In this document: one piece after another, positions 40,201 through 43,200 of the stretch
Layout of the letters: the number at the start of each line of letters is the position of its first letter
Position numbering within the stretch: position 1 is the first letter of the stretch
NCBI RefSeq assembly: GCF_030253575.1
Contig: NC_080558.1
Location: 6,024,001 to 6,088,000, forward strand
DNA: 64,000 bases
Reading direction: 5' to 3'
Source: Rhododendron vialii
Lineage: Eukaryota > Streptophyta > Magnoliopsida > Ericales > Ericaceae
The notes under the pieces: generated by a model
Databases searched by the model: none
Seen by the model: the letters and a program-made list of their open reading frames with translations, nothing else
Told to the model about the DNA's origin: nothing
Translations under genes and position numbers: made by a program

Positions 40201-43200
40201 CAGACGAGTACAAAATGTGCTGCTGATCCCAGTTTTCCGTTCTGTCATGGGATTGGTCCACCTCCAAACACAACAACTACCAAAAGATCAATAATCAAGG
40301 GGGTCGTAATGAGCCCCAACACAACCACAAGACAGAGCCCCCTCTTATGGGGAAGGTCCATCTCACCATCTCCCAACAGATGTGAGATAATGAAATATGC
40401 ATTAGTGGCAGTCTGCAGAGACAGGCCAAAATTTCCCAATCAAGTGCACACATCTCCAACACGCGCCCCCCAACACCCCCCACCCCCCCCCCCCCCCCCC
40501 CCCCCCAACCATGATATCATCCGTTTTGGGGTCCGTCACAAGATGAAAAAGCTTCTTCATGAACGGCAGCGGTGCTCTTTTCACGAACAACCCACCATCA
40601 CCACCGCCGTTGTTGCCGCGGCTGCCTCCTGCCTTCTTCGTACGGCTAGAGCCGCTTCCATTGACATCAAAACCACCACAAATGCTGCCACCAACCACCC
40701 CATCGTTCCAATGATCCTTTGGTTCCATGAGATAGGGAGAGAACGAGAAATGTTTGTGAGATTCAACAGTTTCACTCTAGGGACTGCTACATAAAACAAC
40801 TACTCTACTATTAGTACGCTTATAAGTCTCGTTTTATTCGCTTGAAAGAACACACTTTCCACTCCTCTGGGCTTGGGGTACTGGGATCCGTTCCTTTTCA
40901 CTTCACCCTTGAGACCAATGCATGTTCCTTCAAACACGGACACACACGTGTCTTTGCCGTCCTCGAAGGCCACGCCAAGGCAGCTATTCATCTACTAGCT
41001 TATTGGTATCGGCTTCAGCTTTATCTGCACTCGGCGGCTTTAGTTTTGGTTTGTTAAACACGGTTTCTTTCTTTCCTTCTCTATTTTTACATTTTCCTGG
41101 TAATAACTGAGAATGTCGAGACTAACATATCTCAATTAATTTTTTGGGATCAATTTCATCGTTCGTTAGTGAAGGATTCAATTGCAATGTCTAGGAGGTT
41201 TCGAACCTGCTAGCTTCTTTACTTTTACATGGTGTATATCTATGTTCCGATCTACCTAAATTTTCGTACTTTGTTGGAGACGAAGAAATTTGTTGACTCA
41301 TTTGATTCACTGATTTAATTAAAAAAAAAAACTAACTAGAAATGATGGGGATGAAATTCTCGCTTTTGTTTTCATGACATATATCTGATTAAAAAAAAAT
41401 ACTTTGATCATTTTATAGAAACGGAATAAATACTACTCCCTCCGTCTCTCAATAAATGTCCGGACTGCAAACCTAGGCCTCTAAAAAGATGCATTTTTTC
41501 CGTTATTTCTATAGGTACTTTCAAGAAGTGAAAAAAATCCGAATTTTTTACCGAAAAAAGGCATCTTTTTAAATGCCTATGTTTTACATTTATTTATTGT
41601 AACTAGTGCCTGAGCACATGTAATTGTGTTTGCAAATTGTGTTATGTAAAAGATGGGAAGAGAAAAATCTTGAATTGGAAAGAAAAAAACCATGTGTAAC
41701 GAACCAAAGCTGAAGCCGCTGAGTGCAAATAAAGCTGAAGCCGATGCCAATAAGCTAGTAGATGAATAGCTGCCTCGGCTTGGCCTTCAAGGACGGCAAA
41801 GACACGTGTGTGACCATGATTGAAGGAACATGCATTGGTCTCAGGGGTGGAGCAAAAAGGAACGAATCCCAGTACCCCAAGCGTGTGTTCTTGCGAGCGA
41901 ATATAAAGAGACTTGTAAGTGTACTAACAGTAGAATAGTTGTTTTATGTAGCACTCTCTCCCACAGTCCCTAGAATGAAACTGTTGAATCTTACAAACAT
42001 TTCTCGTTCTCTCCCTATCTCATGGAACCAAAAACATCAAAGGATCATTGAAAAGATGGGTTGGTTGGTGACAGCATTTGTGGTGGTTTTGATGTCAATG
42101 GAAGCGGCTCTAGCCGTACTAAGAAGAAGAAGGCATGAGGCAGCCGCGGCAACAACGGTGGTGGTGGTGGGTTGTTCGTGAAAAGAGCACTGCCGCCATT
42201 CGTGAAGAAGGATTTTTCTCTCTTTTGCGAGCAGCCGAGTATTCCCTCCCACAACTAGTGCCATTTACAAATAGTGCCAGTTCACATACGTGACTAAGAA
42301 GCACGGACACATGAAATATATACTTTATGTCCAAATGTAATATTAACTTCTTTAGTTTGAAATTGAACAAGTAGAGGTAGCACAGGATAAATGCACACCT
42401 TCTTGTAGGAACATATGTTAGTGTACAAAAAAAACTTAAGCAGGTGGAAAAACTGACACTTTGCCTGCCCGTTAGCTTACCCAGTAGACTTGAGCGTCCA
42501 CATAAACACAATAGCAGTTAGAGCAACTCTATTGGATCAAGCTAACCGAAGGCATTTTTTGCCTACTACTATATTACAATTCCAGAAAATGGCATTCTTG
42601 CTACATTGATTCAATGTCATTTCGTCACAACATTTCGTTTACTTAAGTTGGATCCAAAGAATTGGAGATCAAAAACACTGGTGGTGATGCGGGCACACCA
42701 AACAACTTCACCAAAATTTGGCTAGAGTCTTTGGCCAAAGCTTAGTCACATAATCCTACAGTATGACCCTTCGCTCCCACTCCCAATCCTCACTCTATGC
42801 TCACGCTCTAAAGATGCTTTGATGCTCCGGCTCCTTGCTTGAGCATAATGAGTAGTTTGGGATACGTTTAAAGACGCTTTGACGCTCCGCTCTAGTCACG
42901 CACGTGCACACGAATTATGTGACTTTAGGGTCAGAGTGGAGCTGTTGTTTTAGCGTTCAATAGCCAAATCTTGGCTTCGGCTATGCATTTGGCATACCAT
43001 TGGAGTTGCTCTTACTTTTCAAAACACATATGCAGAGAAATGCAAAATAGATGTTTTCCCATTTTTTGCATATAACCATACGGACCCAACATATAAAAAA
43101 AAAATAGAAACAATTGAAAAGAACAAGCCCAGTATAACATTGCCAAGGATAATCACACATGCCCATTTTTCCTCTCTTTTTTTTTTTTTTAAATAACTAA

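Follow-up and report, generated by a model that had tools for sequence, protein, structure and literature searches.

A long inverted repeat in the first intron of a BLISTER-like gene

The 64-kb stretch of Rhododendron vialii DNA analysed in this study (hereafter the window) carries on its minus strand a gene whose first two exons, when joined, read MASAQVLPNTAASSTRKQEHLEAGKRRLEEFRKKKAADRAKKAA..., a peptide which we take to be the N-terminus of BLISTER. Intron 1 has canonical ends (GTAACG...TTGCAG, 43280-40038), and its removal produces an exon junction in which MASAQVLPNTAASSTRKQEHLEAGKRR is followed directly by LEEFRKKKAADRAKKAA.... Two downstream exon ORFs of the gene were compared with Pfam and matched no families. 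Both arms of a long inverted repeat are enclosed by the intron (43280-40038), in agreement with the first-pass annotation, which had placed a foldback inside intron 1 of BLISTER. The features are listed below in the order of BLISTER transcription; the founder gene denotes the gene from which the arms appear to have been copied.

43281..43361, minus strand: BLISTER-like exon 1, coding part (MASAQVLPNTAASSTRKQEHLEAGKRR), ending at 43281
40038..43280, minus strand: intron 1, GT...AG, 3243 nt, with the foldback wholly within it
41677..42221, plus strand: right arm, 545 nt, sense of the founder gene on this strand, antisense to BLISTER
41078..41676, no strand: spacer, or hairpin loop, 599 nt
40541..41077, minus strand: left arm, 537 nt, founder-gene sense on the minus strand, the same as BLISTER
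39297..40037, minus strand: start part of exon 2 (LEEFRKKKAADRAKK...), only the start being delimited

The inverted repeat is real, and its arms (537 and 545 nt, with a spacer of 599 nt) are slightly longer than had been claimed. It is the one strong inverted repeat of the window, and a repeat finder returned it in six pieces (I1-I6). Comparison of the window with itself using BLASTN aligned the two arms at 84.4% over 564 columns (E 7e-145). In a global alignment, 474 of the 518 ungapped columns were identical (91.5%), the differences being 31 transitions and 13 transversions, with gaps of 15, 12, 9, 6, 3 and 1 nt, the 1-nt gap lying at the extreme end. The Kimura distance between the arms was 0.091. 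The 9% difference argues against an assembly palindrome and, by typical plant substitution rates, would very roughly suggest an age between several million and a few tens of millions of years.

The arms resemble the 5' end of a heat-shock factor gene

The following candidate features of the founder gene were located in the arms.

41803..41808, plus strand: G-box CACGTG, right arm (motif match)
41902..41907, plus strand: TATA-box-like TATAAA, right arm, 120 nt before the start codon
42022..42211, plus strand: putative founder CDS remnant, right arm, same frame as in the left arm, with two in-frame TGA stops
40945..40950, minus strand: G-box CACGTG, left arm (motif match)
40507..40728, minus strand: putative founder CDS remnant, left arm, 74 stop-free codons (MEPKDHWNDG...GGLFVKRAPLPFMKKLFHLVTDPKTDDIMV), followed by a poly-G tract

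The founder-CDS frame opens with ATGGAACCA (MEPK...) in both arms and overlaps a second frame, which begins MGWLV. In the left arm the MEPK frame is free of stops, running as MEPKDHWNDGVVGGSICGGFDVNGSGSSRTKKAGGSRGNNGGGDGGLFVKRAPLPFMKKLFHLVTDPKTDDIMV up to the poly-G tract, and leads into PLPFMKKLFHLVTDPKTDDIMV, a stretch similar to the N-terminal ~20 residues of the HSF DNA-binding domain. These HSF-like residues lie at 40572-40510 (minus strand), and the final ~34 nt of the remnant are beyond the inverted repeat. The right-arm frame loses similarity within a few codons of entering the HSF-like segment; the HSF resemblance thus depends on ~20 residues in the left arm, of which the right arm has the first few only.

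Of all 21-residue windows in the six-frame translation of the 64 kb, PLPFMKKLFHLVTDPKTDDIM ranked top with each of three HSF queries (3/3). Against two provisional plant-type HSF segments it scored 66 (12/21 identical) and 61 (11/21), the maxima of 200 residue shuffles being 43 and 41, respectively; against human HSF1, for which the query fragment agrees with PDB chains, it scored 42 (9/21 identical) and the best of 200 shuffles was higher, at 46. In HMMER searches of 2098 stop-to-stop peptides, HSF1 alone placed the left-arm peptide first (E 0.035; next 0.76), a match that is no more than suggestive. A profile of eight HSF sequences, of which seven rows are provisional plant segments, including an HSFA9 segment, returned the left-arm peptide at E 2.3e-5 (next 1.6), and the right-arm peptide third at E 2.1, the match being confined to its opening residues. 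Pairwise phmmer alignment of HSF1 and the arm peptide (12.4 bits, E 8e-6 for one target) is uncorrected for the search and was not counted as evidence. Pfam searches with three fragments (29, 71 and 62 aa), which hold no more than ~20 domain residues, returned no families at E up to 10; a phmmer search of the PDB with the fragment of ~20 domain residues gave no match, and the PDB listing for human HSF1, of 19 sequences, named none as a plant HSF. A literature search on HSF-like peptide words also gave no match. A KK pair in the left-arm segment is like that of HSFA9, which is a weak hint. We consider it likely that the left-arm segment represents the beginning of the DNA-binding domain of an HSF.

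Upstream of the MEPK frame, the left-arm counterpart of the right-arm TATAAA is AATAAAACG, a decayed version of that motif. Decay of the two arms has been complementary, the ORF having been kept in the left arm and the TATA in the right. With a G-box upstream of the MEPK frame in both arms and an intact TATA box in the right arm, each arm reads as promoter, leader and first codons, the two being placed head to head, and looks like the 5' end of one HSF-like gene.

These promoter motifs could also be read as an active intronic promoter, since the plus-strand TATAAA at 41902 and the G-box at 41803 face exon 1 (43281-43361) and might drive antisense RNA across the BLISTER 5' end. The support consists of motif matches, and the TATA box has been lost from the left arm; we regard this reading as very unlikely.

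The first-pass annotation had reported a conserved frame, MGWLV(A/T)AFVVVLMSMEAALAV, in both arms, and had proposed that a small secreted-protein gene was copied head to head. The frame does occur in both arms (40703, minus strand; 42056, plus strand), but not as a conserved protein: over its whole length there are 3 synonymous and 11 nonsynonymous changes, and the identical MGWLV stretch is part of a 48-nt identical DNA run of chance-expected length. The head-to-head arrangement of a gene-like fragment is supported, while the secreted-protein source is not. From MGWLV, the frame stops after 40 residues in the left arm and 41 in the right, and a scan of the right-arm ORF found two Pfam matches, both far below the cut-offs (best E 0.013). 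The lack of constraint and the better HSF match of the overlapping MEPK frame led us to reject the secreted-protein origin, which we regard as very unlikely.

The MEPK frame is likewise unconstrained between the arms, with 1 synonymous and 13 nonsynonymous changes. Its CDS indels (9, 6 and 3 nt) preserve the frame, and none of the 185 CDS columns in the alignment differs in frame between the arms.

Spacer, flanks and the possibility of a transposon

Since MULE and foldback elements have long terminal repeats, a non-autonomous DNA transposon of MULE-like or foldback type, with ~540-bp terminal inverted repeats and captured gene sequence, was considered. The long inverted arms flanking a spacer within an intron would suit such an element. 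A target-site duplication abutting both arm ends is lacking: comparison of 40440-40560 with 42190-42300 gave a best match of 5 nt, and a wider search gave 8-9 nt matches at unrelated spots only. The arms run from promoter to CDS, like the 5' end of a gene, and neither arm had a further BLASTN match in the rest of the 64-kb window at E up to 0.01. The transposon reading was dropped for want of the abutting target-site duplication and is regarded as unlikely.

Two possible elements were noted beside the arms. The spacer contains one possible element.

41436..41605, no strand: possible Stowaway-like MITE, one end (CTCCCTCCGTC...) and an inner inverted repeat, limit guessed

Its end is presumably that of the Stowaway-like MITE class; a second end was not found in the spacer element with up to 3 mismatches, a weak result as the pattern was modelled on the same stretch. 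In the interval from the left arm to exon 2, the segment 40245-40506, which looks LTR-like to us, has a ~25-nt C tract exactly at the end of the HSF-like frame, and this tract is possibly a junction or a weak spot of the assembly.

Predicted hairpin and tests for its maintenance

As the BLISTER-like gene is on the minus strand, its pre-mRNA would contain the right arm first (founder antisense) and then the left arm (sense). The minus-strand RNA of 40541-42221 had a predicted folding energy of -1002.3 kcal/mol with 492 inter-arm pairs, and 25 dinucleotide shuffles of that RNA had a mean of -426.0 kcal/mol (sd 10.2, min -447.3). Folding of the entire intron 1 gave 490 inter-arm pairs, and the left arm folded alone had no unusual structure of its own (z -0.73). 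For the intron RNA an imperfect hairpin of ~540 bp is predicted. The earlier proposal of a long intronic foldback is supported, and the foldback is predicted to form double-stranded RNA (-1002.3 kcal/mol against the shuffle mean of -426.0). Pairing along most of the arm length, as in an inverted-duplication hairpin locus, is predicted, with the transcript taken from the gene model. A search of the whole window against Rfam gave no matches. An exact 26-mer of the arm was absent from both microbial and viral contigs (0 and 0), as expected for plant DNA, and this result is uninformative.

Divergence was even along the arm, with 22 differences in 224 columns upstream of the TATA, 8 in 109 from the TATA to the start codon and 14 in 185 in the CDS. 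The longest identical run between the arms, 48 nt, was within chance expectation (p 0.28, 5000 random placements). On the BLISTER strand, 16 transitions keep a G-U pair and 15 break pairing, and selection for pairing was accordingly dropped as an explanation. The absence of a wobble bias, the even divergence and the chance length of the longest run give no sign of a hairpin kept by selection.

A footprint of hairpin-directed methylation was also considered. Transitions at CG sites in the arms (12/60) exceeded those elsewhere (19/202; Fisher p 0.038). The excess is equally present in two unrelated pairs of S1-gene duplicates in the same window (CG 8/45 vs other C/G 17/243; CG 7/19 vs 17/176), and is therefore not evidence of hairpin-directed methylation.

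The same data are compatible with an inert relic, that is, an inverted pair of pseudogene fragments which is spliced out and degraded before any action. Both frames have decayed without constraint (1 synonymous to 13 nonsynonymous changes; 3 to 11), divergence is even, wobble-keeping changes are unbiased and the longest identical run is chance-like (p 0.28). Against this, the predicted folds retain 490-492 inter-arm pairs, and the arms share identical runs as long as 48 nt, including 66 perfect 21-nt windows and 48 perfect 24-nt windows; these pairs and runs keep the RNA plausible as a substrate for Dicer. The relic is nearly as likely as an RNAi hairpin, and we hold it to be a serious contender at somewhat less than an even chance.

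Proposed origin and possible activity of the hairpin

In the explanation that we favour, the 5' end of an HSF-like gene would have been copied, head to head and inverted, into intron 1 of the BLISTER-like gene. The copied part would comprise the proximal promoter with G-box and TATA, the leader (some 90 nt for a transcription start ~30 nt past the TATA) and about 63-74 codons, after which the arms would have decayed without detectable constraint. We consider this origin and anatomy probable. Each full BLISTER pre-mRNA would then carry antisense HSF, loop and sense HSF, and form the ~540-bp imperfect hairpin. The hairpin, or the intron after excision, could be a substrate of Dicer-like enzymes and yield siRNAs of 21-24 nt. 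Acting in trans, these could target the founder HSF gene, at its mRNA leader and, by RNA-directed DNA methylation, at its promoter; they could also mark the intron itself. Present-day siRNA output is likely to be low and may be zero.

In our estimate there is about an even chance that the locus is an inverted duplication in partial decay and a naturally occurring RNAi hairpin, hosted by an intron and of the endogenous-IR/proto-MIRNA kind. Production of some siRNA from the hairpin is judged slightly less probable than that, and any real regulatory effect improbable.

Several known systems are comparable. Inverted duplication of a target gene, with convergent or divergent copies, is reported to give rise to miRNA genes (PMC3237417), and Arabidopsis MIR163 took in part of the promoter of its founder (PMC5388894). 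Like MIR163 and other young MIRNA loci of inverted-duplication origin, the present arms appear to be an inverted duplication of a founder gene, including its promoter, that forms an imperfect foldback (PMC5388894, PMC3237417). Unlike MIR163, they are located in the intron of an unrelated gene, and are ~540 nt long, and any miRNA, target and founder are putative. Transcribed endogenous IRs are described as being processed by DCL2/3/4 with some help from DCL1 (PMC12825306). In its long foldback within a transcribed stretch, the locus is like Arabidopsis IR71, of the kind fed mainly to DCL2/3/4 (PMC12825306), but IR71 has a dsRNA of ~3 kb with shown siRNAs, whereas the present foldback is ~0.54 kb, intronic and a putative siRNA source.

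Introns as sources of small RNA are represented by sirtrons, which are siRNA-rich introns (PMC4597857, PMC5260113), and by the miR838 mirtron in intron 14 of DCL1 (PMC12825306). The BLISTER intron is like both as a possible small-RNA source within a host gene (PMC4597857, PMC5260113, PMC12825306); it differs in that its arms resemble the promoter and leader of another gene, and its small RNAs are putative. Promoter-derived inverted repeats are able to silence a promoter, their success depending on the region (PMC12844753). The locus resembles such pIR silencing constructs in that promoter-like sequence lies in inverted-repeat form within a transcribed stretch (PMC12844753), though the repeat in the BLISTER intron is natural and diverged, and any effect of it is putative. 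Given these precedents, an HSF-directed hairpin in the BLISTER intron may be called an attractive idea. In a literature search on HSF, inverted repeats, siRNA and BLISTER, none of the 8 papers listed, out of 68 that combine three or more of these four subjects, involved BLISTER.

According to the cited account, Arabidopsis BLISTER represses stress-responsive genes, including heat-responsive ones, and is itself cited as strongly heat-induced (PMC5601981). If the favoured reading is true, a stress-tied host gene combined with the apparent promoter and leader of a stress regulator leads to a specific prediction, namely siRNAs against one heat-shock factor that are co-regulated with BLISTER. If BLISTER is heat-induced in this plant as well, heat pulses might raise the HSF-directed hairpin, and its siRNAs might damp one HSF gene by way of both leader and promoter; such a feedback loop seems highly improbable to us. 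If true, it would provide a Polycomb-associated gene with an RNAi switch against a heat-shock factor. The wider reading, if true, would represent a long inverted duplication in transition from gene copy to small-RNA locus. Should the hairpin yield no small RNAs, the locus is an ordinary intronic relic.

Other sequences in the window

Upstream of BLISTER exon 1, a MITE-like element occupies 44233-44625, with 26-nt ends that are 96% complementary (CTAAGGCTCCGTTCAGTTGCCAGGAA), and a second, shorter inverted repeat lies at 44887-45065 and 45983-46161, with 179-nt arms that are 82% complementary and 917 nt apart. Neighbouring genes include a folate dehydrogenase/cyclohydrolase (6699-7223), pieces of a beta-amylase (glycosyl hydrolase 14; 13923-17418) and a rhomboid with a RanBP zinc finger (47330-48166). 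A 579-aa open frame with DUF4283 (E 2.9e-29) at 3605-5344 on the minus strand is, we assume, probably part of a retroelement. Duplicated blocks of up to 93% identity extend over 50.2-63.5 kb and contain at least two S1-type self-incompatibility frames (Pfam PF05938) on the minus strand, at 52410-52949 and 58069-58674.
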